Shown here piece by piece: positions 255 through 32,200 of a stretch of 64,000 nucleotides of DNA (the first letter of the stretch is position 1; each line of letters opens with the position of its first letter). This DNA is from Siphonodentalium dalli (Eukaryota; Mollusca; Scaphopoda; Gadilida; Siphonodentaliidae), in contig CP136061.1 in assembly GCA_032622095.1 (NCBI GenBank), forward strand, positions 221,745,148-221,809,147, given 5' to 3'. A program made the position numbers and the translations under genes. The notes below the pieces were generated by a model, which was not told where the DNA came from, made no database searches, and saw only the letters and a program-made list of their open reading frames with translations.

Positions 255-890
255 TCAGGTAATAAAAGCGGAGGAAAACGTCCCACTTGGACATATGTTA
301 GAGAGTCACATCAACTTTATGCAGATGACACTCAAATCTATGTTGAATTTGATCAGAATAAAGTTGGAGGATATGATGCAGATAAACGTTGTCTGGAAAC
401 ATGTTTCAGTGATGGTAAGAATTGGATGCTTGATAATAATTTAACCCTTTACCCAACAAACCGGCCAAAACCGGCCAAATAAAGCTTCAACAGCCTAAAA
501 TATCTTCGGTCTGTCTCAATAGAACCATACAAATATGGATATCATTGGAACCGGCTCCTTGACCACATTGTGATAGTTACAGTTATGCCCTGTGCCAATG
601 CATTCTCTTATATATGCGAGTTGACCATAGGTCGCCTCGCATATATAAGAGAATGCATTGGCCTAAAAAAAAATCTTTTTTTAACACTTTTTACCATTTT
701 TTCTTACATTCTTTAACAATTTTATAATTTTTAATGTGTTAAGCCAATGCATTCTCTTATATATGTGAGGCGACCTATGGTCGACTCGCATATATAAGAG
801 AATGCATTGGCACAGGGCCGTTCTGTTGGGTAAAGGGTTAAAGCTGAATGATGATATTATTCACCATTCCCTAATTTCTTATAGATTTTC
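255..890 (+). pseudogene. Non-LTR retrotransposon reverse transcriptase fragment, split by a MITE
   Basis: In the frame that opens at 255 the translation reads HQLYADDTQIY at about 309-341. This is the YADD box of reverse transcriptases of the CR1/Jockey/RTE-like non-LTR group. About 20 residues later comes a Cys-rich stretch, then NWMLDNNL, which matches the downstream conserved segment. The frame breaks at a TTAA at 441 where a MITE is inserted. On the far side of the MITE (838 onward) the same frame continues as LKLNDD, the usual continuation. Only about 80 residues survive, with no endonuclease or start, so this is a dead fragment. The clade is not resolved. Confidence 0.7.
441..841 (+). 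mobile_element. Family 1 TTAA double-hairpin MITE, copy 1
   Basis: TTAA is present at both ends, with inverted ends CCCTTTACCCAACA. Inside are two hairpins of about 70 bp built on GCCAATGCATTCTCTTATAT, separated by an AT-rich spacer. A TTAA duplication with CCC-starting ends is typical of piggyBac-type elements. No transposase is encoded. The element interrupts a reverse transcriptase fragment. Confidence 0.85.
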
Positions 891-1139
891 GATTCACAAT
901 TGGTTATATTTAAATTGTGTTCAAAATTTGTTTTAGATTGTATTTTCTTTGGTCTTTTTGTAAACTCACATTATCATTTTATTTGCCCTGTGTTTAATAT
1001 TATCTCTTTGTTTTAAACATGTATAGCAATTGTAAAGCACATTGAAACTAATTTACTGTCTAATGCATTTTTAAATGTAAATATAATAATAAGGATGTGC
1101 AGAAGGATTCATATTCTTTTGCATGAAATGTTCAGATAA
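842..1139. other. AT-rich stretch without a gene
   Basis: The first 50 bases or so continue the reverse transcriptase fragment. The rest is AT-rich, with no open frame or repeat that I recognise. If lipase gene A continues leftwards, this is its intron 6. Confidence 0.4.
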
Positions 1140-1229
1140 TAAGTTCCATAAATGTTTGCTGAACTTACGGTAATAGCTGAACATTTGCTAGGGAATACTT
1201 GTCAATGAGTATTTAGTAAAGAAAGGGTT
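1140..1229. mobile_element. Family 3 TTAA MITE, end fragment
   Basis: The sequence carries the family 3 end, with TGAACATTTGCTAGGGAA, then GAGTATTTAGTAAAGAAAGGG and a decayed TTAA (TTGA). The other end is missing. It lies 36 bases downstream of the donor of lipase A exon 6. Confidence 0.6.
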
Positions 1230-1265
1230 GATATCATCAGAATCACGTTTGATATTAGAACTCAC

Positions 1266-1421
1266 CTTGTTGAGATTATCCAAGTTAGGGCCACACAATA
1301 AGAAGAGGATATTAGAGCAAACAGATCGAACCACTGGTGTTTTACACACGGTCTCAGCCAACATGTCGAGAAGTGGTCCTCCATTCAGAAAGTCTTTCCT
1401 TCCACACATGAGGAAAAGAGC
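1266..1421 (-). CDS. Lipase A exon 6 (lid region)
   Basis: This exon has 52 codons, phase 0 on both sides. The acceptor is CACCTTGCAG and the donor GTGAGT. It encodes [12 protein letters not shown] through [19 protein letters not shown], the Cys-containing cap/lid part of acid lipases. It has the same length and phase as gene B exon 6. The next exon should carry the [11 protein letters not shown] segment and is outside the window. Confidence 0.88.
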
Positions 1422-4400
1422 CTGCAAGGTGAAAAATAGCAGAAATACAGGTCCAAAGTAGCATAGTGAAACTACGAACATCAGCTGACACCATGGTGAT
1501 AAACAGCTAACTAAACTACCAAAAAGCATGAAGAAGCTACTGGTGTCACAATAATTTATTGGTTTAAACTAGGATGGTTTATTCAATTTATTTGGATTTA
1601 TCATCATTTCAGTTGCTATGCGATATCACAACGTTATCATCTTTCTTTGGTGGAAGAAAGACAGCGCATAGGACTTTTACTGAAAAATCACTCCACTACA
1701 TAACCATCCATGCAGACCCACTGGTAAGTAACTGACAACAAGCTTGCCCAGATACACAAATCATATTACCCTTCCTTTGCTTAGATTACCCTTCCTTTGC
1801 TTTGCTCATATCATGAATGGAACCAGCCTTGAGATCTCTATTGTATGATGGAATATGATATGGTCTGATATGCAATGCACCTTACTGACTGAGTCACCAT
1901 GGGCCACTAAATTAGCATAACAAGCTATAAATGTGACAAATTGCTAAAGTAGCATAACTGAGCCACAATGGTAATAACCCAGGTAAGAAGAATTAATTCG
2001 TTAAGATATCACTCTTTCCAATAAATATAGCATTCTGTTGGGCACCTGCGAATATTCCATATTCATTTTGTTATTCATTTCGACCTCGATATTCGATTCA
2101 AATTTGATTCGACGTTGAAACAACAAATAGTAATTCTGAATACTTCAAAACTGTCAGCGCGAACATAATGCAATTGTCGGTAAAATCTGATCATTCACAA
2201 TTACTACTGTGAAGTATAGAAAATAGATACACTCATAATTATACCATCAAAATATCTGTCATTTTAAGTTAACTTTAATGGTACTAACTACTAACGCTCT
2301 TGTTTCGCGACCACGAATATAACAGTTTATAATTTATTCCGAGAACATTCAGTCAGATGGAAAGATACTTGAATCATACTTCACAATTCAGTTGAACAGT
2401 ACATCACATGACCACCCAGACACGCAATTAGATGTATTATTTTTTCATTATTTGATTCTGTTTACAAGCTTTGCTCAGTTTGACTTGCAACGACAGTTGT
2501 AATGCCCAAGTGGGCCGTTCGCAACAGTGCAGGTCAAATCCCTTTGATTAAATGTCTGTTTAATTTTTTAGAAAGCTGTGATTGAGTAATTCTGCAATGG
2601 TTCATTTGCGATTCCGCCTTTTGAATCGGTAAGTGGAGAATTCCCCTTTAGTGACATCTTTCAAATCGGAAATTTTAATTATTTATAATCTTCAATTTTT
2701 ATTGTTATGTCATTCTGAACGCCTCGACCCTTGACTTTATGGTACAGAGAATGACGGGGTTTTTCAAATTATTATATTGTATGCCCGATAGCCTTATAGA
2801 GTTATTCTGGGTCCAACACATAATATAATTGAAGCAACAGTCATTATTTATTCACAATCGCGGTTATACAGTAAGGATATTAAATTGTCAGTGAATCAGG
2901 AGAGTTCCAATGCACGAAATAGTATTTTTCCAAATTTTTTGTTATATTTTAAGGAAATTATGTCTTTAATTGATCCACCATTCACAAAAACATTGCCAGC
3001 GTGTTTTATTTAGTAGATAATCAAACATACATATGAAAACCGAAAACATATCTTATGATAAACTCAATAAAAATTGAAGATAAATTCCCATAACAGAACC
3101 ACTGGATCTGGGTATAATATATACTATACGAGAGTCAAGGCTGACAAGAAAGATTTGGTCAACAATTCACAAACTATCATATTCCTCATAAATTCTCAAA
3201 ATCGGTGACCTCAGCTAAAATATCTTTCAGCAGCTTATCGGCCATGAAAATTCTTGTCTTTCTTTATATGCATGACTCAACAGAGTCAGATGGAGCAAAG
3301 TTAAAATATTGTATCGAAAACTTAATCGTGAAAACAGTCGTATGCTTGGGTGTCTTGTAAGTAGTCATAATTCACAGATAATCATTGAATTATTTTTAAT
3401 AAATTCCCAAAACGATATGCCAACTTTGTTTCATATCAAACAAAAGGAATTTTATGGCCAATAAGATACATTCAAGTCTGAGTTTAGTCTGTCATTTAGT
3501 GATGCCATCCCGCATAGTGGGGTAGCATCACCAAATTGATCCTCTGGGGACTTCATTCTATTTGGGCCTCAACTGCTATGGGAGACCTAGGATCAGATTG
3601 AAGTTGGTGATGCTCATCCACTAGTCACCTCGATTATGCATTTTATCTTCTGCTAATTAGGGGATATAAAAACTTCCCAGAAGGAAAAAAGTAACTAAGA
3701 ACAATGTTAATTTGAGACTATAGATACAACCCAGAAGATGAGGCCTGAGCAGAATGAGGTCCCCTGAGGGTCAATTCAGTGATGCTAGACCTCTAAACAG
3801 GATTGCATCACTAACCTCACCCTCTGGGGACCTCATTCTGAAAATGACAGGCACACTAATCTCAGGCTTGGATTCTTTGGCGAACATTTGGCTGAGACTA
3901 TCAATTTGACGACCCATTTCCCCCTCCAAATCTCAAGTAGATTTTGCAAGTTTTCAGTATGACATCTTGAGTTTGGTTCCTTTGATTTTGTTAAAATTAA
4001 TTATGTCACAGAGAGGGAATTTTATGACCAATAAGACATGCTGGGTTATTTGGTATTTTCATCCTCATGGGCCTCTGGTCTGAAACATAAACAATATTAC
4101 TGTAAAGTACCTACCTCCTCTGGAATATAGGACACAAGTCGTACTGGGCTCTTGATGTGACCTACAGTTACAACAGGCGCAAGAGCAAAGAATGTCTTCA
4201 CCTACAATTTATAATGTTGGAAATAATACATAAAATACAAGATTCTCATATAATTAAAAAAAAATTCTGGTTAAATATTGTCATATGCTTTCAAACTGTT
4301 TGTAAAGATTATTTTAATATGTCTTTATCGGTCTTAATTAATATTTTTAGTACACATTACAATGTTGATTTTCAAACTTGCATACTCACATGAGATAATC

Positions 4401-7400
4401 CTACATTTCATTTCTGTATGGTTCCCTGAGAATGTCCCGTGCATTAGTATACAGTAATGCCCTAAATAATCGACTCGATCCTTAACCATTGCAGAATTAT
4501 GGGTAACTTTTCAGGATTTATTTGGTAATATGGCTTGTTGCCATTCATTGGAAAGCTCTCAGTGAGAGCTTTCCGATGAATGGCAACAAGCCATATTTCC
4601 GACTAAATCCTGAAAAATTACCCATAATTCTGCTGTGGTTAAGGAGTCGATTATTTAGGGCATTACTGTACACTTATTGACTGCCTTGGGATGGAATAGC
4701 AAGAACTATTTTCCCAAGGTGATGTCTTTTAAGCTGCAAGCAGGACTATTAGCTCAGGCCGCGGTCAATAGTCCTGTTTGCTGTTCAGAAGACACCATCG
4801 AGGGAAATTATAAGCACTTGTTTTTCCACCCAAAGGCAGTTAACCCTTTACCCAACAAACCGGCCAAAACTGGCCAAATAAAGCTTCAACAGCCTAAAAT
4901 ATCTTCGGTCTGTCTCAATAGAACCATACAAATATGGATATCATTGGAATCGGCTCCTTGACCACATTATGATAGTTACAGTTATGCCCTGTGCCAATGC
5001 ATTCTCTTATATATGCGAGTCGACCATAGATCGCCTCGCATATATAAGAGAATGCATTGGCCTAAAAAAAATCTTTTTTTAACACTTTTTACCATTTTTT
5101 CTTACATTCTTTAACAATTTTATAATTTTTAATGTGTTAAGCCAATGCATTCTCTTATATATGCGAGGCGACCTATGGTCGACTCGCATATATAAGAGAA
5201 TGCATTGGCACAGGGCCCTTCTGTTGGGTAAAGGATTAATAGATGTTTTATTATAGATGACAAAATTCTGCCTCATGTCAATTGTGACGTCATAAGGTGG
5301 ATAAATAGTTTGAAGACTACATCCTGGGTGCTAATTCGCAAATTTCTGGCCTCTTGCCAGAATCATGACAATTGTCGCATTGCCCCAAATTTTGCCTCAC
5401 GCCAACCATGACATCAGTAGGTGGACAAATAGTTTGAAGACTATATCGCCCATGCACAGAAATGTGACAATTCTGGCAATTTGCCAATTCTGATTGTCAG
5501 ATTGTGATGTCAGCATGCAGGTACTAGTTCAAAAACTATAGCCCGGGCGATAATTCACTTGCAAGGCAATGGTCAAAACTACTCTCTGACATGTGATGAC
5601 GCTTCTTCAAAAGACAGTATCACCCTCTGTAAATTCAATGTATATAATAATGATAATTATTATATAACTTGAGTTCCCAGAAGGTGATTTGATTGGACAA
5701 ATCACCATCATGTGTCAGAGAGTAGTTTTGACAATTACCTGATGAGCGACCTATCGCCCGGGCTGTAGTCTTCGAACTATTACCTGCCTGCTGACATTTC
5801 AATTTGGCGCAAGGCCAGAATTTTGCAAGATTCCAAAATTGTCATAATTCTGGTGCGAGCCAGAATTTTGCAAACTATCGCCTGGGCTATAGCCTTCCAA
5901 CTATTTATCTGCCTACTGTCATCATGGTTGGCACAATGAGTGAATTTTGTCATATATAATAAAGCACCTATTGACTGCCTTGGGGTGGATTAGTGAGTGC
6001 TATTTTCTCTTAACCCTTTGAACCCTGATGTCCTCAAGGTTAAATGGTCCCCACCCGAGGCACCTGATGTTATATAGTGTTTCCTATGAACTCGTAGTGC
6101 TCTTAACTGGGACGTATATACATGTATACATCCTCAACTATATGGCAATCTGCTATGCTAACTGAACTAGTGTGCAGTCAAATATGTCACAAGGTATTTC
6201 AATGAATGGTTCATTCAATTCCACATTCAATATACATGTAGATTATATTGCAGGTCCCTTTGGTCGCACTATATATTTATAACAAAATTGTTATCCTTTG
6301 TCTATGATAAAAGGTGTTTCTCAAAATGCACCTATGTGCAAGCGCGACGAAACAGACCCCCTGACACCAATTTGGCTGTTAAAGTCAGAGGTATGAACAT
6401 GTGACTTAAGTGTGAAAAGTAGACGCGCAATTCTAGTTAATTTGCACTTTGATCACGCAATTTTTAATGAAAAACTTCTCCTATTCCGACGATAAAAAGC
6501 ATTTTTTTTGCTCAAAATTAGGCTTCTGCGCATGCACGAAGAAACAGACCCTCTGTCATCAGTTTGTCTGTCAAAGTCATATTGGTAAACATATGTGACG
6601 CATGTGCGCAAAGTAGAAGTACAACTCTAGTTGATATGTACATTTATTGTGCTCTAATTTCATGTCAAAAATCGTATGATTTCCTGACCGCTATTCACAC
6701 CGCTATTCCGGTCTCCCGGGATATAGGAACATAAGGATTGGACCGATATTCCGGTCTCTCAGGTTCAACGGTTTAATGGTGTCTTCTGAACAGTCCTGCT
6801 TGGGAAAATAATTTTGCTATTCCAAATTCCAAGGCAGTCAATATGTGTATAATATAGAGGTCATATATTAACTATAGAGATAACCATAAATACATACCAT
6901 GGCGCCATACTTCTGATTGCGAGAGAATAAAGCGAAAGCCTGCATGGTTCCCTGGGAATGTCCGACATAATGAAGTCGTGGTTGTCCCGTCGCATTCGTG
7001 ATGTAATCAAACACTGCTGGTAAATCGTTCAGCGCCATCTGGTCCCAACTGGAAATGAATGCAATATAACAAGTTTAGATTAATCTGAACAAATGTAAAA
7101 GAAAAGATTCCATCGTGCCCCAACTAGAAATAAACATAAACTATTAGACTAATATGAACAAATTAAAAAGGGCATATATATATGTCCCAACCTAGATCAA
7201 CATGATACCACTTTCGCTGATTGCTGCAGGTAATACATGACTGAACTGCCGGTAAGCATAATTTCTGTATAATATAGTTGAATTCCCCCATGATAAATAA
7301 ATATTAAAATGGGCTTTTAAAGGGCAGTATTATTGTCCACATATTTTCCTTGCAGCTAAATATATGTATGATAAAAATACAAAGTTGTTGACAGGTCGAT

Positions 7401-10400
7401 CAGTTTTACCCTGCTGGAGTAATAGGAGTCTCTGCTGTCGGAGTTTTTACATGCTGAAGGAGGTTGTGACATCATGATATCATGAAGTCTTAATTTGTTG
7501 CCAAGAAGCCAACTTTCAAAAGATTTGTTACCAAAACCAACCCCGATAAGAATTCATATTACTAGTAAGCATATTAACAAAAAATTTGTGCAACATTTTC
7601 ATAGCACATTAGCATGCTTTACATGCTGTATTTAAGATATGACGTCGCCGGAAGTGTGGAAGGATAAAGAAACAAACATCAAAGATCAGGACAAACCAAA
7701 GCCATTACTTGTGTCCAGCATAGATGCGGCACAATAAAATACCAATCAAACATTATGTGGGCATTTAAATTATCAACTTGAATGCAAGATCCCTATTTTA
7801 TTATTCACTATGCTTTAGAGACTCATTTCACTGTTACCTGAATTCCCAGAACTCCTTGTCGTTTTTTGTATATTCTTTATGTTTTAGAGAGTATGTGTTT
7901 CCTCGACTGTTCCCCATCCATACGTCAAATCCTGCATCTGCCAAAATGAAACCTGAAATGAACATCAAGATATGAGCTTTAAATTTCAATAAAAATTTCC
8001 AAGATTAAGTCAAGAATTTTAGACCACAAGATGAGGCCTACAACATTCAGAACAAAATAATGGAATTATTTCTCTTAAAGGATTACATCAGTGTAGCTTT
8101 TCTCAGTCAGTATTGATGCCCGCTAATCCACTAAGCACGTTGACAAAAATAATTTTGCGATAGGCCGTACATAACTGAAGTTATGCCAATTCATGCGATT
8201 GAATAATTCATTATGGATTATGCAGTCTGAATTGTTAATCTTCCTTCATGTGACGTCATATGAGGGACTTCTAGCGATACACAGTGTCAAACGTGAAGGC
8301 TGTCGCAATTGGCTTTTATCTACTGATTGTTTGCACAAAAATGGCTAGACCATCAGAGCTAAAAATGTGTTCATATGGGTACTTTGTCCTGGGGGATCTT
8401 AATAGGTAGGCCCCATTGACATCAGATGTCTTAAAAGGGCACTAATAATTAATTCAATTAATTATATACCCAAAATTGTTGCAATCTGGTCGATGGAAAT
8501 TGAAACACGGGGATAAATTGACTTGTAGAGTATAACAAGATAGATGTCATTCAACTCAGATGACTTAAAGGGCCAAATATGAGTAATAATGAGTGTTCCT
8601 TATGTAGAAAATTGGTACCGATTGGTCACCTGACCAGATGAATTTCATGGGATAGGCTAATCTTCTCATGGCCCAAGAATACTGGCTGAGAATAAAGTAT
8701 TACTTACTTATGCTTGACCTCAGATGACTTGAAAGGGGAATAATGAATTATATGATAAATAAAGAGCGTTTATTATTAGTCTGGAAGATATGTGGTAAAT
8801 TGGTGTAAAACCATTGTATAATACAAGTCAGTTTATCCCTGTGTTTCAAATTTCACTGACCAGATTGCAACCATTTTGGGTATATAGTTAATAATTTAAT
8901 TTAATTAATTATTAGTGCCCTTTTAAGACATGTGATGTCAACATGACCTATATAATAGGATTCCATGGGTCAAATTACCCATATGTACAAATGTTCAGCT
9001 CTGATGGTCCAGCGTTTCTGCATAAACAATAAGTTGATAAAAGCCCATTGCGACAGCCTTTCAAGTTTGACACAGCATGTCACTTGTAGTCACTCATGTG
9101 ACGTCACATGAAAGAAGATTTACGATACTTCAGTTACGGGCGACCTATCGCAAAAAACTTTTCGACAACGTGCTCAGTGGAATAGCGAGCATCGATAATG
9201 AGAAAAAAGAAAAGCTAAACTTGTGTAATCCTTTAAAGACAAAAATATTATTTTGTTTTCTCTAAGGATCCTCTCTTGAGGACTTGAATAATTTGATTCC
9301 TCAATGTATGTTGTGAAGATGGAGACAATTAAGGACCTATGAATAACAGCTATTTAATGTTGAAATTTCTTTTGGGGTGCTATGAATATCTAAAGTACAG
9401 TTTCATTCAGTGTGAGAATATAAAATACAGTTTATGGAAATAAATCTAAAAAACGACATTATATTTGAGATTTTACCATCTGTAATATAAAATAATGATA
9501 TTTATATTTATTTTATATTACAGACGGTAACATCTCAAATAAAATATTGTTTTTTTTGTATTTATGGACCATGATATGACATACCAAGTGCTTCGTACGG
9601 GTGATTGGTCACCCAGTTAGTGGATGAACACAGTAGTCCGTGCTGTATAAAAACCACTTTCTTCCCCGTTGTTCTAGGCTGATTCTTCCCATGTGGAATT
9701 CGGAACACGCCTAGAATATATCCATCCGATGTCTCAACACTGTGCTCCTCTACAGGATATCCTTGACTTGTCACTAGTTGCGACTACAAACAATGAATAC
9801 CTTCATATAAAAATTGTGTTGGTAATTGAACGTCTGGAATCATGAATACAGTAATGCCCTAAATAATCGACTCCTTAACCACAGAACTGAAGTTCTCACT
9901 GAGAGCTTTCCGATGAATGGTAACAAGCCATATTTCCGACTAAATCCTGAAAAGTTACCCATTATTCTGCTGTGGTTAAGGAGTCGATTATTTAGGACAT
10001 TACTGTACAAGACATAAAACTTGTTTATTGCTTGGTTTATAATCACATTGACCAAGCCTGGAAATAGTCTGTCTGACATTTGCAGAATGAGGTCCCCAGA
10101 GGGTGAATTTAGTAGCCCTATCCCGCATGACAGGCGGGTGTCATCTGGGAACCTCATTCTGCATAGACCTCAACTGGGAGACCTATGATCAGATTGAAGT
10201 CCCCCAGTTGAAGTTGGTGATGTTCACCCATTGGTCACCTCGATAATGCATTTTATCTTCTGCAAATTAGGGAATACAGAAACTGAACAGAAGGGAAAAA
10301 TAAACTAAAAACAATGTTAATTTTTGACTACAGATACTTCCCAGAAGATGAGGCCAAATCAGAATGAGGTCCCCAGAGGGTGAATTAGGTGGTGATAGTA

Positions 10401-11249: not shown

Positions 11250-11386
11250 TCTCTGGCAGTTATGGTTCTAACTCTGGAAGACAAAATACCAAAGTTATGA
11301 ATAATCTGCTGTAACCTTATTATAACAATATAACATATTGTTGTAAACATATTTTATTTCCAATCAAATCATACATGTCATACAAT

Positions 11387-11530
11387 TTAACCCTTTCTAT
11401 ACTAAATGGATTCTCCCACTCAGTTATAAAAGTATAGATTGGAATCGTCTATTATTCATCTGGAGGGGTGTTCAGGTAATAAAAGCAGTGGAGGGGTGTT
11501 CAGGTAATAAAAGCAGATGACAGATAGAAC
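11387..11530. mobile_element. Family 3 TTAA MITE, 5' part
   Basis: It begins TTAACCCTTTCTATACTAAA and carries the family's GGAGGGGTGTTCAGGTAATA block twice in tandem (about 11462-11510). The far end is missing. Confidence 0.65.
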
Positions 11531-11631
11531 AACAGATAATGCAAGATACAAAATATTCAGGATTGAGTTTTAAGGCTACGAATAAATAAGAATCACATTA
11601 TTTCTCATCGCTAAGTATTCAGTTATCAAAG

Positions 11632-11815
11632 TACAGTATAATGCCCTAAATAATTGACTCCTTAACCACAGCAGAATTATGGGTAACTTTTCAGGATTTA
11701 GTTGGAAATATGGCTTGTTGCCATTCATTGGAAAGCTCTTACTGAGAGCTTTCCGGTGAATGGCAACAAGCCATATTTCTGCTGTGGTTAAGGAGTCAAT
11801 TATTTAGGGCATTAC
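11632..11815. mobile_element. Family 4 palindrome MITE
   Basis: Ends are TACAGTATAATGCCC and GGGCATTACA. The arms meet at GAGAGCT. The right arm lacks the CCTGAAAAGTTACCC block. Confidence 0.75.
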
Positions 11816-11990
11816 ATGCTATGAATGGGTTTGATGCTCACCGATGGACTGCTGAGTTTCATTACAGTGGCTAGGTGTGAGTTAAGCGGAGAGTGACAGT
11901 AGAGTTATATGCTGTTTAAATCTCACTCCTAGTTGTGAACCTTGAGCAAGGCCGCTCATACAGTGACCACTTCGCACCACTCATGTGTTA
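11816..11990 (+). repeat. SINE-like repeat, 5'-truncated copy
   Basis: The sequence GGACTGCTGAGTT, then GTGGCTAGGTG, then GTTTAAATCTCACTCCTAGT matches the body of the tRNA-derived repeat at 15740-16035 with scattered changes. The tRNA-like head is absent. Confidence 0.5.
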
Positions 11991-11991
11991 T

Positions 11992-12391
11992 TTAACCCTT
12001 TACCCAATAGAAGGGCCCTGTGCCAATGCGTTCTCTTATATATGCGAGTCGACCATAGGTCGCCTCGCATATATAAGAGAATGCATTGGCTTAACACATT
12101 ACAAATTATAAAATTGTTAAAGAATGTAAGAAAAAATGGTAAAAAGTGTTAAAAAAAGATGTTTTTTAGGCCAATGCATTCTCTTATATATGCGAGGCGA
12201 CCTATGGTCGACTCGCATATATAAGAGAATGCATTGGCACAGGGCATAACTGTAACCATCACAATGTGGTCAATGAGCCGGTTCCAATGATATCCATATT
12301 TGTATGGTTCTATTGAGACAGACCGAAGATATTTTAGGCTGTTGAAGCTTTATTTGGCCGGTTTTGGCCGGTTTGTTGGGTAAAGGGTTAA
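11992..12391 (-). mobile_element. Family 1 TTAA double-hairpin MITE, copy 3
   Basis: The family 1 element is in reverse orientation here, with TTAA at both ends and both hairpins intact. It lies 5' of lipase A, between the two genes. Confidence 0.85.
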
Positions 12392-12555
12392 ACAAGTATC
12401 AGTCAGCTTGTACGTAATACCGGTGAGTATATGTTCTGATCAAACTAGAGCAGCGGCTGTACAAATGACTGCAGCAGGTTCATTGTATGGCTTGTACAAA
12501 TGACTGTGTACTGTACTGTATTGTTTAAAAGTGTCTAAGTTGAGCAAGTAATTGG

Positions 12556-12945
12556 TTAACCCTTTACCCAACAGAACGGCCCTGTGCCAATGCATTCTCT
12601 TATATATGCGAGTCGACCATAGGTCGCCTCGCATATATAAGAGAATGCATTGGCTTAACACATTAAAAATTATAAAATTGTTAAAGAATGTAAGAAAAAA
12701 TGGTAAAAAAAGTTTTTTTTTAGGCCAATGCATTCTCTTATATATGCGAGGCGACCTATGGTCGACTCGCATATATAAGAGAATGCATTGGCACAGGGCA
12801 TAACTGTAACCATCACAATGTGGTCAAGGAGCCGGTTCCAATGATATCCATATTTGTATGGTTCTATTGAGACAGACCGAAGATATTTTAGGCTGTTGAA
12901 GCTTTATTTGGCCGGTTTTGGCCGGTTTGTTGGGTAAAGGGTTAA
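12556..12945 (-). mobile_element. Family 1 TTAA double-hairpin MITE, copy 4
   Basis: It has the same orientation as copy 3 and lies only 164 bases from it. Both hairpins and both TTAA ends are present. Open frames on both strands here are products of the hairpin and are not genes. Confidence 0.85.
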
Positions 12946-14260: not shown

Positions 14261-14269
14261 TGATTGCAT

Positions 14270-14820: not shown

Positions 14821-15078
14821 ATGAACATTTTGGTAATATTTCTTAGAAATATATAAAAATTTGGTGGTGGATCCAATATTCTGGACTTCATTAATTCTAT
14901 CACTTATGATTCTATTTCAGGGAATATCTGATGAATATCTATTCAACATACAGGGAGCAGAAACTTTGTGAATGTTATGATTTCTAAGCGGGTCTTAGTT
15001 TCCATAAATGAAAAAAAAATTACATTAATAACAGATTTAGCAGATACTGCTCCATATTATTGTCAACATCAACATATG

Positions 15079-18467: not shown

Positions 18468-18735
18468 CATTAACCAATCCATGACTGGAGCTTCCTGAAA
18501 TGTTGCGAAAACCATGTGCCAATGCATTCTCTCATATATACGAGTCTCCCATAGGGATCCTTGCAAATATAACAGAATACATTGGCCTAACAATATTTAC
18601 CTTGACCTTGTAAGCCAGTGCATTCTCTTATATATGCGAGGCTCCCAATGGGAGACTCACATATTTAAGAGAATGTACTGCATATGATCTTTAATGCTGC
18701 ACCAGCATGGCTCCCGTCATGAATGGGTTTATAGT
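18468..18735 (+). mobile_element. Family 2 TTAA double-hairpin MITE, decayed
   Basis: It carries CCATGACTGGAGCTTCCTGA at the left and CTCCCGTCATGAATGGGTTTA at the right. Both hairpins are present, with changes in the stems. The TTAA ends are eroded. Confidence 0.65.
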
Positions 18736-18925
18736 TCATTTCAGTATGCAGAGGTCGGTGATTCAATAAAGCTAAATAATCTAATCAACCAACAATTGAC
18801 ATGATATCCAGTAATCAGCTTCCGGCCATGAAAATCATCATATAATCTAGTATGCATGAACACTGAAAATCTTCAATATGTGAGAAAGTGCTTAACTATA
18901 GTGCTAGCATAATATTTTCTTAACA

Positions 18926-19020
18926 AAATATGTATCTCCTAATATGTATCTCCTAATATGTATCTCCTAATATGTATCTCCTAATATGTATCTCCTAATA
19001 TGTATCTCCTAATATGTATC
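18926..19020. repeat. 14-bp tandem repeat
   Basis: The unit TATGTATCTCCTAA is repeated about seven times with almost no change. It abuts the inverted-repeat element that follows. Confidence 0.9.
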
Positions 19021-19945: not shown

Positions 19946-20124
19946 TGCCGGAGATATGTATAGCCAATTATAGAATATGTAGGAGTTGATATGCTGCCAT
20001 GCATGATGCTAAATGTGAATACAAAGTAGATGCTGAATGGTTGCTATTAAATTGTAAAAAAAATGATGTCCAGAATAATAAATAAAGTATGTGTCGTGAA
20101 ATTTCTTCCCCAAAAATGTGGCAT

Positions 20125-20271
20125 TCATTTGTTTTCGTTGATGATGTTGATGATGACCTCATAGATATCTTTATAGGCATTCATCCCCCAAATAAAATCC
20201 AGATGGTTGTACGAGTCGACATGGATTGTTTTGACTAGATTTTTCAACTTTGGTATCAGAAGAGAGACATC
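20125..20271 (-). CDS. Lipase B exon 10 (catalytic His, stop)
   Basis: Phase 0 after acceptor TGTTTTCAG, 48 codons and TGA. It encodes [15 protein letters not shown] and [20 protein letters not shown]. The His of NHLDFIWG completes the triad. The end of the protein, INIINENK, matches the family's C-terminal length. Confidence 0.93.
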   Translation of the reverse strand, partial: DVSLLIPKLKNLVKTIHVDSYNHLDFIWGMNAYKDIYEVIINIINENK

Positions 20272-23200
20272 CTGAAAACAAACAATAAATTTTAATCCAA
20301 TTCATAATTGGAAAAACAGTTGACATTCAAACCATTTCATAAAAGGAAAACAAATGTAATTAATATCATTATTCCGATTCAATAACTTGAGCATTTAATC
20401 TTTAACCCTTTACCCAACAAACCGGCCAAAACCGGCCAAATAAAGCTTCAACAGTCTAAAATATCTTCGGTCTGTCTCAATAGAACCATACAAATATGGA
20501 TATCATTGGAACCGGCTCCTTGACCACATTGTGATAGTTACAGTTATGCCCTGTGCCAATGCATTCTCTTATATATGCGAGTCGACCATAGGTCGCCTCG
20601 CATATATAAGAGAATGCATTGGCCTAAAAAAACACTTTTTACCATTTTTTCTTACATTCTTTAACAATTTTATAATTTTTAATGTGTTAAGCCAATGCAT
20701 TCTCTTATATATGCGAGGCGACCTATGGTCGACTCGCATATATAAGAGAATGCATTGGCACAGGGCCCTTCTGTTGGGTAAAGGGTTAAAGACTCTAAAT
20801 ATTTCCCTTCTATAAACATAACTTTAAACATCATTTATCTCACAGGATTAGATTGAAAGTCAAATACTGGAATTTGTTCTTAGCTACCTGTTTAGAAAAA
20901 ACATAAACAGATTATAGGAAGCCGAACAATGAGTGCAGAGATACTAAATGTGTACTATACAAACATAATGTGAGTGAAGCAATTTTTTTGTGCCACAATA
21001 ACAGCCTATATACTGCCAATACAAAAAGGCCAAGACATTACTCCTGAGGTTGTTCCAAAAAGGGGAGAATGGAGGGTGTTCAAAAAGAGCGACCGGCTGC
21101 TCCGGTTCATTTATTGAAAAGAAAGTATAACTCAAACTGCTTCGCATATCCCTGCCGGCAAAAATATAGTTCCCCTGATTCTTGCTTTGGAATTATTCCC
21201 ATCGACAGTTTATAATCTTATATTATTCTTGCCAAAATTCTTGCAATTGATATATATGGGCATGTTTCATCTGAATATTTTCCAACACAATTGTATAGCT
21301 TACTTTTGTGAAATGCCAAGCGTTATGGCATTGCGATCTATGTTGATGAGATACCTCGCTATCAAACATGTTCACATTACAATCAAACATGTTCGCATTT
21401 CAGCAAACTTTTGTTTAATGTCACATGCGTAGTTAATCCTTTGGGATAAAATTCGTCGCTATGTTTTTAAAATTTCAAATTTCATGCTGAAATTTGTGGG
21501 CTAAAAACTTTAATACTTTATTATGATCTTGAAACCAACCTTGGGATCAGCTAGCCAATCATGTCCTCCTGTAAACAGTACGACTGGTGTCTCCATCTTT
21601 GTGACATCATACAAGGGTGGGGTATCCTGGGAATTTGAGAGGAATACTAGTATAATAGTGTTTCAAATTGCTCTACAATGTAATTGTTATGTTAAACAAG
21701 AGCTTTGATAGGTCATGGCAATATATGTCCGTTAACCATTTTGAATTGTACTACAGCAAAAAACAATAAAAATTTGAGCTTACAAAGAATATCTGATGTA
21801 CCCCTAATTTCAATGCCAAAATGCGGTAAAAATGTCAAAAAGGGCCGTAACTCATGTCAAAATAATTGGGTCTGTATTTTTAGCTGGGGAAACACACGTA
21901 TCAGCTTTAGTTCAGATCAAATAATCCAAACAAGAGTTATCGGTCAGAAAATTAAAAGTTATGAAATCAGGCAAATTCTAAGTCGAAAAAGGGCCGTAAC
22001 TCAAGTAAAAATAATTGGACGGAATCCATATTTGAACTTGGCCTGTATTTTTAGCTTGGAAACCAAAATATTATGAAATCAGTCAAATTCTAAGTCGCAA
22101 AAGGGCCATAACTCATGTAAAAATAATTGGACGGAACCAATAATTGAATTTGGCCTGTATCTTAGCTGAAAATACATATACCAACTTTGGATCAGATCAA
22201 ATAATCCAAACTGGAGTTATTGGTGGGAAACCAAAAATGTTAATGGAAGGAAGATGGACAGACAGACTGACTGATTTCATAATACGACCGTTTTTTCAAA
22301 GGGCATATAAAAAATATACACAAATTTTGAATCAAGCGTGTAATAACTTGCTGTGGTCAAGTTGTGGTCTCATAAAGAAATATGAGTTTGAGTAGAAATC
22401 GCAAACCCAATTTGATGAAAATCAGACAAAGTTCATCAGATGTTTTCTGGTGAAGGCAGGAATGATTTTCAAGTCAATCAATGATATTTATTATTAGAAT
22501 CCATTAACCAAATTTGATGAAACCCAGAACATTATAAGAGGCATAACTCATGAAACAAAATTCGGACAGGACTGGTTTTCAATCAGAAGTCTCAGTAGCT
22601 TGGGCATTAATTTATAAATATACCTCTCATTTAATATTATAAAATACATTGGTGCAAGGATAAACAGACCGGATATGCCACTTGACGCAGACTTAATTAA
22701 AATTACGCGAATTAAAATTTAAATGGAGATGATATATTTATTTGACTTTTTATAAAACAACAGTTTATGTGAGTTTAATAATCACTTTAACATCATAACC
22801 ATGCTTTTTTGTGCATTGTGTACATTGAAATTGAATACAGTGGGAACAATTATCAGATGACCGGTCAGGTGACTTGAAGTCGTCAGACAGACATGTTTCC
22901 TATAAGTATGATAGTCTATTTTTGGCTACATTCCAACTAGTCCAAGTTTTTTATGTGTGGAAACTACAAACCATAATTTGGCCAACATCCAATAATTGTT
23001 TTATTTATTGTGCTTATGACATGATACACTAGATAGATGGTTGGGACAGATGCCCACTGTTAGGTGGAGTTCTGTTACCCCATCGATCGAAAAGTGCATT
23101 ACATCTTGTTTCTGACAAAAAAAAGCTACCAACCTGTCCATAATGCTCTTCATTTTGCTTTTTCGACCGATAGTCATACATCTGAAAAGCCTTTGTATCA

Positions 23201-26200
23201 AAAGCCTGGAAAATATTGCATTAAAATCAACAAATTAGTTCATAGCTAATTAAATAAGGTAATAATTTGGACCATGTGAAGCTTCAAGATTTTATTCAAT
23301 TTTGATTCGACTGTTATTTGTGTGGAAAGACTATGGAGATAAGTGACTTAAATGACAATTGACTCAACAATGCAACTGCATTTTTAAAATGAAAAACATA
23401 ACAAAATAAGAATATGAAGTAATGTTCTGATGACATTAGATTTGAGATGTCGGTCTGAGTGAATAAACACAGTACTGCATATATGTTGCTAGCCAATACT
23501 TCATGTCACTCTTGAAATCTTGAAATCATGGAATGTTAACAGATGTCCCTTAATACAGTATCGCATTCATGACACAAACTGACACTGCAGTTCTTTGCAC
23601 TTATTGTTCAGTCCAACTCAAAATTATTTTCTTTTGAATTTGTTCAATTTAAATATATAGCTGCATATATCAGCTACATTTGCTAAGAAGGTGGTATAAT
23701 TGCAGAGTCACATTCAGTGTGGTCTTTAACCCTTCCATGACTGGAGCTTCCTGAAACGTAGCGAAAACCCTGTGCCAATGCATTTTCTTATATATGTGAG
23801 TCTCCCATAGGGAGCCTCGCATATATATGAGAATACATTGGCCTAACAATATTTACCTTGACCTTGTAAGCCAGTGCATTCTCTTATATATGCGAGGCTC
23901 CATATGGGAGACTCGCATATATAAGAGAATGCACTGGCGCATGATCTTTAATGCTTACCGGCGCAGCTCCCGCCATGAAAGGGTTAAATATTGACCCAAT
24001 CCTTCAAAAGTGCTGGGCCTTGAAAAGTGCAACCTCATTCTGATTAAGCTTCATCTTCTGGGAAGTGTCTATAGTCTCAAATTAACATTATTTTTAGTTA
24101 CTTTTTCCCTTCTGTTTAGTTTCTAAATCCCCTAATTTGCAGAAGATAAATTACATAGTCAAGGTGACCAATGGGTGAACTTCAATCTGATCCTAGGTCT
24201 CCCATAGCGGTTGAGGCCTAAGCAGAATGAGGTTCCCAGAGGGTAATTTGGTGCTGCTAGCCCACTGTGCGGGGTAGCATCACTAAATGCACCCTCTATG
24301 GACCTCATTCTGCAAATATCAGACACACTATATCCAGACTTGTATACTTTCCATTTCATGTGAATCTGAATCAGATTTATCTGCTCTTTTATATTTAGCA
24401 TGGTGCACGTCACCTGGATTATAAGCCGTACCTGTTTATAGTGAACCATGTTTTGTGTTGATGTCCCAGCTGGCGTATGTGATAAATACACAGGAAGTCT
24501 TGTCTAGAAAATAAAATTTTCAAAGTTAGGCCTTTAGGTACTCTTAACCCTTAATGTGGTTAGTTTCAGATACAATTGATCATTTAGCAATAACATAAAA
24601 GTCGTCACACAATACCCAAGTAAAACTTTAAATGACCCGGCAATGAAAGTTGTTGACATAACAATAGGTTAATCAAGTAGTGTTCTACTGAAGTGGAAAT
24701 GAGTTAATAAGTGTGCCAAATCAATAGAATTTTTACAAAGTCTTGACACGTATTATTTCGCTGTGTGTGGTCTCAATACAAACTTAATACTAAATGGATA
24801 TCCGGTAGCAAAACGACTGAAACGAATGTGTGTGATCAAGTGTTTGCAAGTAATTTTTGCCATAACTAGGGCAGAGAGGTCAAAAGAAAACAAGAAACAA
24901 ATTTAGATTTAGAGTTTTGTACAATCAATAACAGTCGTAAGAGCGACATATTTTATCCAAAAGGGTTAGCATGACATTAAACAAAAGTTGTCTGCAAACG
25001 AGAACATGTTTGATCGCGAGATATTTCATCGGCATAGATCGCTATGCCATATCGCATGGCATTTCACAAAAATAAGTTATTCATTTGTGTCGGCAAGTAT
25101 TTAGATTAAATTCGCCCATAAATATGAAGCACAAGAATTTTGGCAAGGATATATAAGTTTATGAATCGATTGGAATAATTCCCAAGTTATCCCAAGCAAG
25201 AATCTGGAAAAAAATATGTTTGCCAGAGAGGATACGCAAAGCGGTTTGAGTTATACTTTCTTTTCAATAAATTAGTTGTCTTTCACTCCAACCCTGTGGG
25301 ATAAAGGTTCTTTTTACAATCAGACACTGAAACACTAATTTTGAGTTAGTTCTGGTATTGACAGTTTTGATATTGATAGTTATCTGCTGAAAAACTATTG
25401 ACTCACCAGATTTAAATTTGACAAGTCTGGGCCACATATTAAAAAGAGGACATTGTAACAAAGAAATCTGGTCAGTGCTTCTTTACACACGCTGTCAGCT
25501 AATATATCCATAATAGGTCCTTCAGGCAGAAAGTCTTTCCTTCCAAAAATAATATAAAGAAGCTGCAATTAGAACAGACGTTTATAAATTTCAAATATAT
25601 AATTATACAACAGGCCTGAAAATATGGTGCTGGACATTTGCATAAATGAGGTCCCCAGAGGGTGAATTTAGTGACACTACTCCACACAGGGGGCTGGGCA
25701 TCACTAAATTCACCTTCTCAGAACCTCATTCTGCTTAGGCCTCATCTTCTCTGGAAAGTGTCTTTATTATCAAATGAACAAGTTTCATTTAGAAACTCTT
25801 TAGAAGTTTCTGTTTAGTTTTAAGTTTCTCTATATCCTCCAATTGGCAGATGACACAATGCATAATCGAGGTGCCCAATGAGTGCACATCACCATCTGGG
25901 AACTTAAATCTGTATCTAGGTCTCCCATAGCAGATGAGGCCAGGTAGAATGAGGACCCCAGAGGATTAATTTGGTGATGCTAGTCGCTAGCCAGCTTTAC
26001 AGGGTAGCGTCACTAAATTCACCCTCTGGGGACCTCATTCTGCTATATTTTCAGGCCTGATTCACAAGGACATAGACAACATCCATTTTCATCCTAAAAT
26101 TTGAAATGTTTGCATATTATATAATATAGGGCTTTCCAGATGTATGAAAAGCAATTCATATTACATTACTGTGTTGATATTTTGGGTTTTTATTGAATCA

Positions 26201-29200
26201 ATTCGATGCGATTTGGAATCTTTTGTCTGATTCGATTCGAAATTGGATGTCCTGATTTGAATTGTATCCAACATTGGCACAAGTTGCATTCTCATTACTT
26301 CAACAGACAACATTACTTTTTTCACGAATATAGATTATGATACCAATGAAATACCATACAATCACTGTTGTAGACTGAGCTATACCATATAGACCACCGA
26401 AGCATTACACAACTGATGTAACTGATCTAGAAAAATTTCATATATATGTCGAACTTCAGCTAAGTGAATGTGATTGCTTACTGACTTCATTATTGTCTAT
26501 GATACTGTTTCATTAGTTTATAGCAGAGATGGCCACACGAATGCGCACTCAATTGGTTAAATGCGAATCCATTTATGGATAATATTTACGTTATATATCA
26601 ACGATCACTTATCGTCGTTATGAAGTGAGCAAATTGATACCGGTATGGCCACTCAGTCAAGTGATATCTACATCTTCAATATTGATACGTGTGATGCAAT
26701 GATTCGATTTGAGATTCAATGTGATTTTGAATAATTCGGCTGATTCGAGATTCGATTTGAAATGAAAATGCCCAATTTGCAGGGCCCTACTTTTTTTCTA
26801 CCATGCAATCCTGTTGTAAGTTTGCTATTTTCTGTTTTCAAATTTGTATTACTGGGCACAAATACCGGTAGTTATCATAGTTTTCTTATACATAACAACA
26901 TTGTAAGGGCATTAATGTAAAACGTGTGAACAAAAGCAATGTAACTCAGCTAGAATGAACTGAAACAAAAAATAAAGCCTTTTATCAGATTTAATTCTCC
27001 TCAATCAACATCAACTTGGTAAATTTTGTGAGATAAAAAATGGCTAGAGTTCACAGTTCAAATTTTAAAGGCAGGGTTCGTGCTGGCCAAAAAATTCCTT
27101 TGGCCATTTCTGAATTCCTTTGCCATTTCTGAATTAGTTTGGTTATTTCTGAATTTCTTTGGTCATTTCTGAATTTCTGTGGTCATTTCTCTCATATTTT
27201 GGCCAAATTGAAAAATCCAAAATGGGTTTTCCAATCAAGCGACATTCAGAAGAAGGTTAGAAAATCATCGGGATAATTGACTCCCACAGTGTACTGCAAT
27301 TACCATGTTCTTAATTCATCAAAAATTTCAACGTGATTGGGCAAATAACATATATAGAAGCTACAGGGTATCATGAGGGGGAACTCTATTTTTAGGAGTT
27401 TTATAAGAGAATGCATTGGCACAGGGTTTTCGCAAATTTTAAAGAAGCTCCAGTCAGAATTTACCAGTCATTTTTGGCATGCATGTTTTATTTTCTTTGA
27501 CTTTACCTTTTTTTTATTATTATCTTTTTTTTAGTTTTTTTTTATTGTTCAATAATAATTTACTGCATTTACCATGTTCTCAATCCGTAAACATTTCAAC
27601 ACGATCAGATGAACAATATACAAGATACAGGGTAATATATGGGGGGGGGGCTTTTTTTTTAGGTGTTTACAAGCGAATTGGGAGCCTTGCATATATAAGA
27701 GAATACATTGGCCTAACAATATTTATCTTGACATTGTAAGCCAGTGCATTCTCTTATATAGACGAGGCTCCCAATTGGAGTCGCATATATAAGAAAATGC
27801 ACTGGCACAGGATCATTAATGTTGCACCAGCGTAGCTCCCATCAAGAAAGGGTTAAATGTACTATAAGGGGCTTTCAGTTGCATTCTTTTAGGGTGTTCT
27901 TCCAAAATAGCAAAGAGGACAAACATATTTTTGAGTGCAAATTGACATGTGGCTTTAAGCATAAATCTGCACTCTTGCTGGACAAAAGGGAGAGGTATGT
28001 TAACTCTTTCGCTTCCAGTCTTGCATAAATGCGAGTTACCCAGTCACTGCTAATAGTGCATTATGCAAATTCAGCGGTGCATCTGGTATAAGGAATGTAA
28101 TTCTATTGTTTTGTTGCATTATGAAGGTGGCTCGGTTATTTTCTATAGAGTGCTGGTGTGCACTGACAATTTAGAAGAAATTAAATTAAAGAAAAGAATG
28201 TTAACAACTTATAACAAATCACCTAATTTCATGGTAACTTACCTCCTCCGGGACAGCGGACATGAGTTGTACAGCCCGGCTCTTTAAGTAACCTATCGTT
28301 GTAACAGGAGCCAAGGCAAAGAAAGTCTTTACCTGTAAAATTTATAAAATATTGTAAAAACTAATCATCTTTATAGTCAGTATATGATACATGACAGGCA
28401 GATTCTGACAAATTTCTCCAAATTTAATAATAGTACAGACCCAAATAACAGTACACTACAGAGTGGATGTTTTCAAGTTTCCCCACAATCATTGTCATAT
28501 GAGCTAATTACAATTATAGTAACTGGTAATGTCACCATGTTAAAAGTGAGAGAAAGATGATTTGTCTCATATTTGGCAGAATATTTGCAGCTAAGGTGAT
28601 CTGAGACTGTATATTTATGCTGGTGAGCAAAATTAAATAAACATACAGTAATGCCCTAAATAATTGACTCCTTAACTCTCAGTGAGAGTTTTGCGATGAA
28701 TGGCAACAAGCCATATTTCCGACTAAATCCTGAAAAGTTACCCATAATTCTGCTGTGGTTAAGCAGTCGATTATTTAGGGCATTGCTGTACAAACCCAAA
28801 TATATAACATACAGGATAGAGTTTTTTGCAGAAAATTAATAATAATACATCTATGATTATCTGGATCCTGAGAGTGCCATCGAGGGATAGTTTGCAAGAG
28901 AATAAAGCAAAGACCTGCATGGTTTCCTGAGAATGTCCGACATAATAAACAAGTTGTAGCTGTCCCATTGAGTTAGTGATAAATATAGTGGTGCTATAGT
29001 AATTATATAGATAACCATAAATACATACCATGGAGGCGTACTTCTGATTGCGAGAGAAAAAAGCAAAGGCCTGCATGGTTCCCTGAGAATGTCCCACATA
29101 ATAAAGTTGTGGCTGCCCCGTCACATTAGTGATGTAATCCAACACTGCTGGTGTGTCATTCAGCGCCATCTGGTCCCAACTGTGAAACAAATAGGAAATA

Positions 29201-32200
29201 GAATTACATTAAATATGAATTCTTAGGTCAGCAAGCATAATGTAGACAGGTATAGGGGTTAAATATAATGTGTTTTAATAATAAAAAGTGATCGCTGAGC
29301 ATAGGAATTATGTCATGGCAGCAGTGTCAATATAAAATCCCCGTTTCAATGATATCACCAACTCAAATTGTTTTTTCAGGTTTATTGTATTTATAAGGAA
29401 AAATCTACATTATTTTATACAATTATACAGTATAAACACATTGGTGCCAATCAAAAATTAAGTTTGTGATTCGTTCCAAAGGTGACAATACAGTTCAGTC
29501 ACATCAGAATTGAAGATTATCCTTAGCCTTTCTTTACTAAATGGATTATCCCACCCATTTACAAAAGTATACACTGGAATGGTCTATTATTCATTTGAAG
29601 GGATGTTCAGGTAATAAAAGCAGATGACAGATAGACAAAATGATGATGCCAGTGCAGAATTATTTATACTCATTGATGGGAAATGTCAGATAACAAGTTC
29701 AACAAACCACCTATGTTCATTTTTTGAACTTATTATCTGAACATTTCCTAAGGGAACTATGATTCAATGAGTATTTAGTAAAGAAAGGGTTAAATATGTA
29801 CATCCTTTGTTGACAGATCTTTGACCTTTGATTCAATGAGTATTTAGTAAAGAAAGGGTTAAATATGTACATCCTTTGTTGACTGATCTTTGCCCTTTAG
29901 AAAATAGGTGTTCACCAGACTGGTTACCTGAATTCCCAAAATTTCTCGTCACATTTGCAGTATTCTTTATGCTTCAGAGAGTATGTATTTCCTCTACTGT
30001 TCCCCATCCATACGTCAAATCCAGCATCCGCCATAATGAAACCTGAAATGAGCATTTAGGTGAACTATATCACTAAGAGCTTTCCGATGAATGGCAACAA
30101 GCCATATTTCTGACTAAATCCTGAAAAGTTACCCATAATTCTGCTGTGGTTAAGGAGTCGATTATTTAGGGCATTAATGTACACCTCAGATGCTGGCATA
30201 CCCCACATTGCCATATTGAAACATTAAAGGACGGAAACCAAATTTTTAAAAAACAAAGAAGGATAACTCTAGAATGGAAAATTCAAACATTACTGGGCAT
30301 TCTTTTGAAAGCAGTCATGAAGGTAAAACCTCTATACCAAATTTCATTCAGATCTGATAACCCATGGGTGAGATATCTGAATGGATGGGCAAAAAAACAC
30401 TATTTCCGGATGAACAAAGAAGGATAACACTAGAATGGAAAATGCAAATGTCATTTGCCCTTCTTTTGAAAGCGGTCATGATGGCAAACATTGTTACCAT
30501 ATTTCATTCAGATCCGATATGCCCAGACGAAAAATTCAACCCAGCATACCCCCCATTTTTAAAGTGGGGGTATAATAATCACATATATATGTATTGCCCA
30601 CTATCTTGGAATTCCTTTCACCAGACTATATCGAAAAAAGGTGGCTTTATAATATATTCAAACACTTCTGATGGGTTGGAACATAAAGGGCATCACAAAT
30701 TTGCCACGTATGTCGCTTCAAGCCGATCATGGGCACGAGCTCGCTGCATGTCTTACACTTCATAAAAAGCGATGAACCACCTAGTCAGGCCGATCATATT
30801 GTTATTGGGATACTATGTTGGAATTTGAACGATATGTTACTTTACAATTTTTGGTAGTTTTGAAAAGTTGATAAAGTTATTAACCCTTTACCCAACAAAC
30901 CGGCCAAAACCGGCCAAATAAAGCTTCAACAGCCTAAAATATCTTCGGTCTGTCTCAATAGAACCATACAAATATGGATATCATTGGAACCGGCTCCTTG
31001 ACCACATTGTGATAGTTACAGTTATGCCCTGTGCCAATGCATTCTCTTATATATGCGAGTCGACCATAGGTCGCCTCGCATATATAAGAGAATGCATTGG
31101 CCTAAAAAAAATCTTTTTTTAACACTTTTTACCATTTTTTCTTACATTCTTTAACAATTTTATAATTTTTAATGTGTTAAGCCAATGCATTCTCTTATAT
31201 ATGCGAGGCGACCTATGGTCGACTCGCATATATAAGAGAATTTTAATGCATTGGCACATGGCCCTTCTGTTGGTTAAAGGGTTAATGTTCTATTAAAATG
31301 GACTGGTATATGATTATAATGAATGACTTGAATATTGATTGAGGTCATTGCTTTTGACCGGCAAAGTAATCAAACAAAGTTCGTGTGAATCCCTTCGGTC
31401 ATAATCCAATGACCCCAATTGATATTCAAGTAATTTCTTAAATAAATTATTCAGATGCACGGTTCTCACTGAGTCATTGAATCGGACCCTGATATTGTAT
31501 AATAATTGCTTCATATGAATGGTTCTCACCGGGTCATTAGCTCGGACCCTGATCTTGTATAATAAATGCTTGATATTCACGGGTCTCAAGTGAGTTCTCA
31601 TTTCCAGAAAAGAGTAGAAAAATAATTATCGACTACTGAGAAATTGGCTGCTTAAACTGCCTACATGTGTGTCCCGAATGTGCCATACCAGTTTTTTTTA
31701 GTAGCGGCTTATGAAAGTTAGAGGAAGTTAATCTGATTCAAGTCTGGAAATAGTGTGTCTGACATTTGCTGAATGTTGTCCCCAGAGGGAGAATTTAGTG
31801 ATGCTACCCTGCACAATGGGTTAGCATCACCACATTCACTCTCTGGGGACCTCATTCTGCTTAGGCCTCATCATCTCAGAAATATCTATAATCTCAAATT
31901 AGCATTGTTTTAGTTACCTTTTCCCCTCTGTTCAGTTTCTATATCACCTGATTTGAAAATAAATAAAATGCATAATCATGGTGACTAATGGGTGAACATC
32001 ACTAACTTCAACTGGGGACTTCAATCTGATCCCAGGTCTCCCATAGCAGTTGCGGCCTAAGCAGAATGAGGTTCCCAGATGGTGAATTTGGTTGGTGATG
32101 CTTGCCGCCTTATGGGCTAGCATCACTAAATTCACCCACTGGGGACCTCATTCTGCAAATGTCAGACACACTATTTCCAGACTTGATCCGATTGCATATC

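Follow-up and report, generated by a model that had tools for sequence, protein, structure and literature searches.

Introduction

Among described transposons, the nearest case to the elements reported here is that of the CMITEs of Acropora corals, which are miniature inverted-repeat transposable elements (MITEs) related to piggyBac, about 100 bp long, with CCCTTT-type ends and TTAA duplications, found in tandem arrays and present in about 1,600 copies in A. millepora; according to the accessible parts of the same source, CMITE families differ in their terminal inverted repeats but have in common a single conserved internal region of some 75 bp, which the authors suggested to matter for transposition (PMC2872659). 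The words hairpin and palindrome are absent from the CMITE paper as far as its accessible text extends (PMC2872659), and this paper was the only close precedent returned by our literature search, a literature match of five short element sequences having given only two cell-culture papers, each via a single match to one sequence. Palindromic DNA is also present in piggyBac and piggyBat, where, as the available portion of the source describes, subterminal palindromes of 19 bp and about 14 bp, respectively, are read by two transposase C-terminal domains (PMC11707139). In the present study a stretch of 64,000 nucleotides from the scaphopod mollusc Siphonodentalium dalli (contig CP136061.1, positions 221,745,148 to 221,809,147; hereafter the window) was analysed together with the genome to which it belongs, and it was established that a near-perfect palindrome of 69 bp, here termed the hairpin or module, is shared by small non-autonomous DNA transposons of at least four families with different ends, designated F1 to F4.

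As in the CMITEs, a conserved internal region is common to families whose ends differ, the two cases being set side by side by description and not by internal sequence. What is added here to this nearest case, as far as its accessible description goes, is that the shared region is a palindrome of 69 bp, mostly two per element, that it occurs at more than 140,000 places, that a non-TTAA family (F3) is included, and that the arms show paired changes. With piggyBac-type MITEs in general the elements have TTAA duplications, short CCCTT-type inverted ends and high copy number in common; such MITEs are usually told apart by their ends, whereas here it is an internal palindrome that is conserved and the ends that vary. 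Like piggyBac and piggyBat, they carry palindromic DNA inside the ends of TTAA transposons, but in the part of that work available to us the palindromes are short and belong to one transposase each, while the present one is 69 bp long and common to several families; reading by a protein dimer is a feature of piggyBac and piggyBat that would apply here by analogy.

Results

The genome searched comprises 2.23 Gb in 9 contigs, and 200 loci (named L followed by a number) were fetched from it, namely 160 element loci, all on contig C1, and 40 transposase loci; about 30 of these were inspected by eye and the rest by script. The element sample thus represents a single contig and is biased to well-kept copies, as exact or near-exact patterns were used for finding them. 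Families F1, F2 and F4 have TTAA target duplications and piggyBac-like TTAACCCTT ends, with inverted ends starting CC[C/T]T (CCCTTTACCCAACA, CCCTTYCATGACTGGAGC and CCCTTTGAGTGCCAGG). The ends of F1 read TTAACCCTTTACCCAACA, and 29 of 30 elements are flanked by TTAA on either side; those of F2 read TTAACCCTTYCATGACTGGAGC and TTAACCCTTTCATGACGGGAGC, the TTAA ends being seen in the window copies. In an older form, F2b, seen in L068, L071 and others, the ends are those of F2, the tip is ancestral, and the AT-rich repetitive linker is longer. F4 ends in TTAACCCTTTGAGTGCCAGG and carries a single hairpin (L061-L067, some incomplete), with TTAA flanks in 9 of 11 cases. F3 ends in TGTGACCCGCCATATCAAATCC (L015, L017, L018, L074-L079) and has 2-bp duplications in place of TTAA, its 2-bp flanks being equal in 19 of 23 rows and TA/TA in 12, in a set that includes one internal pairing and one apparent duplicate. 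F1, F2 and F4 therefore have the TTAA duplications and CCCTT-type ends of piggyBac-type MITEs, and F3 does not. The preliminary description of this DNA had recognized two TTAA families with one common stem; the sharing holds, with the number of families raised to at least four, one of them non-TTAA.

The shared part begins on its outer side at CCCTGTGCC, or a one-base variant of it, in nearly all copies inspected. The possibility that the module is a transposon of its own was considered and is so far unsupported, as 99 of 100 listed left flanks were assigned to F1-F4, in a listing of the first C1 matches to a pattern that leaves out most F1 and F2 flanks and with assignment resting partly on flank letters and partly on fetched loci. 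The sole unassigned flank among those listed, L016, has an F3 core with a flipped linker and no recognisable F3 ends. Part of the outer ends is missing in L066 and L073, and no constant target duplication was seen by eye at the module borders.

In the intact hairpin of 69 bp, 27 outer pairs are followed by one T×C mismatch and then by five tip pairs that close an ATA loop. Elements with two hairpins are built of two inverted copies of the module flanking an AT-rich linker, so that hairpin 2 is the reverse complement of hairpin 1. The G×A mismatch of the second hairpin, described previously as a mirror arrangement, is indeed present, but as it is the same asymmetry as T×C and follows automatically from reverse complementarity it does not represent a second conserved feature. 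In the one F1 element tested the hairpins fold at -54.3 kcal/mol (z -14.3 and -13.7), and the F2 copy at 23.8 kb of the window has hairpin folds of -40.1 and -55.2 kcal/mol (z -10.1 and -13.0). Hairpin 1 can also pair with hairpin 2 on one strand in the folding test; as a selected structure this pairing is a poorer fit, since pair 5 of F2 was changed in the right hairpin only and the two hairpins of L167 carry different tips.

The hairpin consensus is identical at 69 of 69 positions in F1, F3, F4 and F2b. The first 66-75 linker bases are homologous across the same four forms and are 66-85% identical (44/67 to 55/65), and in four comparisons 9 of 54 to 17 of 68 aligned positions of the linker consensus were different, which against the hairpin gives a Fisher P of 2e-6 to 5e-4. 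Copies of F2b are older, with a divergence from consensus of 5.2% as compared to 1.1-1.5% for F1, F3 and F4 in a sampling that favours good matches, yet their hairpin consensus is the same. The script that built the family consensus left out 23 of 185 hairpins without a clear family and misassigned the family of four others (L040:90, L020:282, L119:72 and L119:167).

Both arms of the hairpin changed together, stepwise, in the F2 source lineage, the only one in which such change is clear. Six positions, 5, 30, 31, 39, 40 and 65, distinguish the consensus of the F2 right hairpin (F2R) from the ancestral hairpin, and they make up exactly the pairs 5/65, 30/40 and 31/39; the probability that six changes fall into three whole pairs is 6.6e-5 by position alone and about 2e-6 with matching bases. 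In the left hairpin (F2L) two whole pairs were changed (P = 0.012 for at least two) together with two single changes, C to T at 24, carried by close to half of the copies, and a C×A that is fixed at pair 8. Intermediates are still present in the genome. The left hairpin of L167 reads CGCCC/GGGCG while its right hairpin retains the ancestral CGACC/GGTCG, and in L181 (TGCCC/GGGCG, a tandem neighbour) and L189 (CGCCC/TGGCG) tip pair 4 is exchanged while tip pair 3 is still G-C; in L070, read by eye, CGCCA/TGGCA indicates that pair 6 is exchanged as well. The half-way state for tip pair 3, CTCCC with GGGCG, was found in L025, L114 and L115, and A×C at pair 5 in L167 and L108. These paired changes and surviving intermediates bear out the earlier claim that two tip pairs were exchanged between the families with pairing kept; the tips given for them, CGACC-ATA-GGTCG in F1 and CTCCC-ATA-GGGAG in F2, agree with the window matches and the folds. 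The single mismatch was also kept, as had been claimed, and the loop was not inverted: of 212 oriented hairpins, four of them oriented by a score gap of at most 1, 207 carry T×C, the others having T/T (3), A/C (1) and a flipped G/A (1), and none has a loop reading TAT.

In inserted copies pairing is not maintained. In the 100 hairpins of F1, F3 and F4, all of which entered the consensus script, 86 changes are one-sided and four are two-sided, the latter all in L040:90, which is really F2; apparent two-sided changes in F1 and F2b were largely due to the four misassigned hairpins, while single-copy paired doubles in F2b at pair 30 of L163 and pair 22 of L169 are real. Covariation, proposed in the preliminary description as the check on maintained pairing, gave a divided result. 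The old F2L alignment retained 47 of 64 rows plus L119 (left out were rows 2 bases off register, three rows that belong to F3/F4, a further L065 repeat and close duplicates), and its 47 distinct rows contain 26 two-sided cells as compared to 17.4 in shuffles, a value reached by 2 of 500 shuffles, with the caveat that related sequences can exceed shuffles without any structure. For the young families 56 of the 100 hairpins, mostly changed ones, were picked by hand for alignment, and no pair was changed on both sides among the 46 distinct rows counted. Compensatory changes of the kind expected of a functional RNA hairpin were thus not found across copies.

Tip pair 3 is a G-C pair that lies inside a CpG on both arms. 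Genome-wide, 2,520 copies carry transitions at this pair, 2,490 of them one-sided and 30 being paired A-T doubles, such that about 98.8% are no longer Watson-Crick paired, although the G with T class among them would be a wobble in RNA. The search for double changes returned 36 in total (30 A-T, 1 T-A and 5 unpaired), near neighbours such as two on C7, 3 kb apart, being kept. The 30 A-T doubles compare with at most 13.5 expected under independence, a 2.2-fold excess (P = 7e-5) of a kind that unequal ages, CpG decay and local duplicates can produce.

The scale of the amplification was established by pattern searches of the whole genome. A search for the hairpin core, in which the 15-base tip was left free and the 9 bases flanking it on either side had to match exactly, gave 143,975 places as compared to 0 for the backward control, and the exact ancestral tip stands at 114,889. 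Exact occurrences of the F1 end TTAACCCTTTACCCAACA number 91,648, the F2 linker was found 32,446 times with up to 3 mismatches, and the F3 end 19,655 times. A 402-base F1 query gave no match against the genome with a search method that skips very common words, and a plasmid search with the F1 element, uninformative for this kind of genome, likewise gave none. On contig C1 (742231-915867) successive hairpin copies are spaced regularly, first by about 14,558 bp and further on by about 11,175 bp, and owing to this regularity two large tandem arrays are indicated near the start of C1. At L065:1597-1956 several F2 hairpin-plus-linker units stand in tandem, a pattern that would result from amplification of the hairpin unit itself.

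Matches to the piggyBac transposase domain PF13843 number 128 in the genome, many of them in open frames, and 40 of these loci were sampled, 20 with about 1.3 kb on each side and 20 with about 1.4 kb upstream only. In L088 (C6:83252300-83253800) an end at 5-28 shares 21 of 24 bases with the F1 end and lies about 1.4 kb before the transposase domain in a 426-codon open frame, so that this element is, judged by its sequence, a candidate relative of the F1 partner. An end in L090 shares 19 of 24 bases with the F2 right end, and several other transposase loci begin TTAACCCTTT. A 2.4-kb F1 element in L019 was examined as a longer parent and rejected, as its sequence is that of an F1 copy into whose linker foreign DNA was inserted; this insertion of about 2 kb (approximately 290-2300), seemingly at TTAA, ends in AGGAATTAG and TAAATCC by eye.

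In the window itself the stem word GCCAATGCATTCTCTTATAT has 39 matches with up to 3 mismatches where 0.02 are expected. The F1 tip has 12 matches with at most 1 mismatch, all within six F1 elements, which agrees with the six copies reported before; 10 are exact and two carry single changes, at 622 and 5021. The F2 tip has five such matches, four of them at 18546, 18642, 23802 and 23898 within 441-31285, where only that at 23802 is exact. This interval holds two F2 elements with both hairpins, one whose first hairpin is broken and a fragment near 27400, and a further F2 copy lies outside it (Table 1). The single changes in F1 (622, 5021) and in F2 (18546, 18642, 23898) each break a pair in a single copy. 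The fifth near match to the F2 tip lies at 58470-58482, away from the described elements.

Table 1. Module-bearing elements in the window (positions are those of the window)
Element	Position	Strand	Hairpins and remarks
F1 element	441..841	+	594-662, 743-811
F1 element	4840..5239	+	4993-5061, 5141-5209
F1 element	11992..12391	-	12022-12090, 12170-12238
F1 element	12556..12945	-	12586-12654, 12724-12792
F1 element	20402..20789	+	20555-20623, 20691-20759
F1 element	30880..31285	+	31033-31101; second from 31181, 4-base insertion in right arm
F2 element, decayed	18470..18731	+	18518-18586, 18614-18682
F2 element	23726..23987	+	23774-23842 (left), 23870-23938 (right)
F2 element, first hairpin broken	27672..27856, start uncertain	+	second hairpin ~27740-27806
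F2 left-end fragment and part of one hairpin arm	27395..27480	-	
F2 element, outside 441-31285	56901..57207	+	both hairpin tips enlarged by insertions

Other observations concern damaged or composite copies and neighbouring genes. The hairpin was lost partly or wholly in L001, L002, L004, L005, L009, L013 and L077, half a hairpin being left in L004 with the tip in the opposite orientation, while in L078 and L079 an F3 element was inserted into the stem of another such hairpin, at an ATATAT stretch by eye. Inverted pairs of single-hairpin F4 elements surround other DNA in L061, L062 and L063 and are possibly composite elements. In L080:602-1030 (C1:4495950-4497740) an F3 hairpin is split, by eye, by an insert of about 1.2 kb with CGG-rich inverted repeats. 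The insert contains an open frame of 142 aa with a match to Bcl-2 (PF00452, E 9e-11) and could represent an apoptosis-regulator gene captured on a mobile element, or else an element of its own. An open frame on the minus strand of the window (28771-29190) matches alpha/beta-hydrolase (PF00561, E 3e-8).

Discussion

The main outcome of this work is that a palindrome common to families with unrelated ends has a consensus that did not diverge while the linkers beside it did, and that its arms changed pair by pair in one source lineage while inserted copies lose pairing uncompensated. The earlier statement that pairing is being maintained is accordingly to be divided, holding between families, where the arms changed together with intermediates surviving, and failing within the copies. 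The reading that we favour, though tentatively and somewhat short of an even chance, is constraint on the hairpin in the source elements, for which the palindrome may act as a portable module of at least four MITE families. It would be needed during amplification of the source elements, most likely as symmetric DNA, recognised by some protein of the transposition machinery, or else in the form of an extruded hairpin. Source lineages losing arm symmetry would be outcompeted while inserted copies decay freely, and where two changes match, the second may often come from template-switch correction. The lack of two-sided change in young copies is as expected if constraint acts on sources. A number of observations weigh against this reading. 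The target duplication of F3 differs, and thus one transposase cannot explain the sharing, and neither the hairpin nor an exact F1, F2 or F4 end was found at the 40 transposase loci sampled from the 128 matches. Perfect pairing was not demanded, as mismatches were fixed in subfamilies, namely C×A at pair 8 of F2L and a C×A beside the tip mismatch shared by three F2b copies. The paired change is clear in one old lineage only, and the F2L pairs with two-sided change number 7, which is not above shuffles (8.3). Lastly, AT-rich repetitive linkers may evolve faster, by slippage, or may align badly. A further-reaching proposal, which we regard as rather unlikely, is that the palindrome is an independent amplification module for any small DNA transposon, whatever its transposase, that it moved between piggyBac-type and non-TTAA elements, and that its symmetry was selected in the sources.

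Arm copying without selection, raised already in the preliminary description, is quite possible, although we doubt that it is the main cause; one arm would template the other, by template switching or quasi-palindrome correction, or the hairpins would convert each other. The mechanism has been described for hairpins in rRNA and microRNA genes, where the accessible account gives perfect stems, half-way states and corrected or compensatory pairs (PMC8794818). The hairpins studied here resemble these in their compensatory and half-way states, among them the half-changed F2 tips of L025, L114 and L115, and are a poorer fit to that description in their persistent mismatch and lack of inverted loops (PMC8794818). 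Also in keeping with arm copying, the F2 right hairpin was derived with few intermediates, as if copied from the left, and A-T doubles are in excess at tip pair 3, for which the CpG decay, unequal ages and duplicates mentioned above would serve equally. No correction was seen in the 100 F1, F3 and F4 hairpins, the C×A stayed fixed in F2L, and 207 of 212 hairpins retain the T×C, which lies just 1-2 bases away from the pairs that changed, one tip being flipped and no loop reading TAT. As arm copying should at times remove the adjacent T×C or invert the loop, the balance tilts towards constraint in the sources.

The module could also be a neutral passenger, captured once or a few times by families that amplified soon after, such that the shared hairpin reflects recent descent and the F2 tip change a rare chance lineage. 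This would be in agreement with the decay of copies without compensation, with the youth of F1, F3 and F4 (1.1-1.5% from consensus) and with the same CCCTGTGCC borders in the copies inspected, as for one captured piece; we consider it improbable in view of linkers that diverged while hairpins did not and of the six F2R changes in three whole pairs (P = 6.6e-5). A function in RNA, whereby transcripts would fold to give small RNAs or editing substrates helping the elements or the host, draws on the very stable modelled fold, but any long palindrome folds this well and copies show no compensation, and this appears the most improbable of the explanations.

What causes a small number of MITE families to multiply explosively is a question of long standing. 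The presence of an identical palindrome in four types of element with unrelated ends and diverged surroundings points to a specific piece of DNA, and the variants of its tip (ancestral, intermediate, half-changed and derived) represent natural mutants with which selection for pairing can be separated from arm copying.

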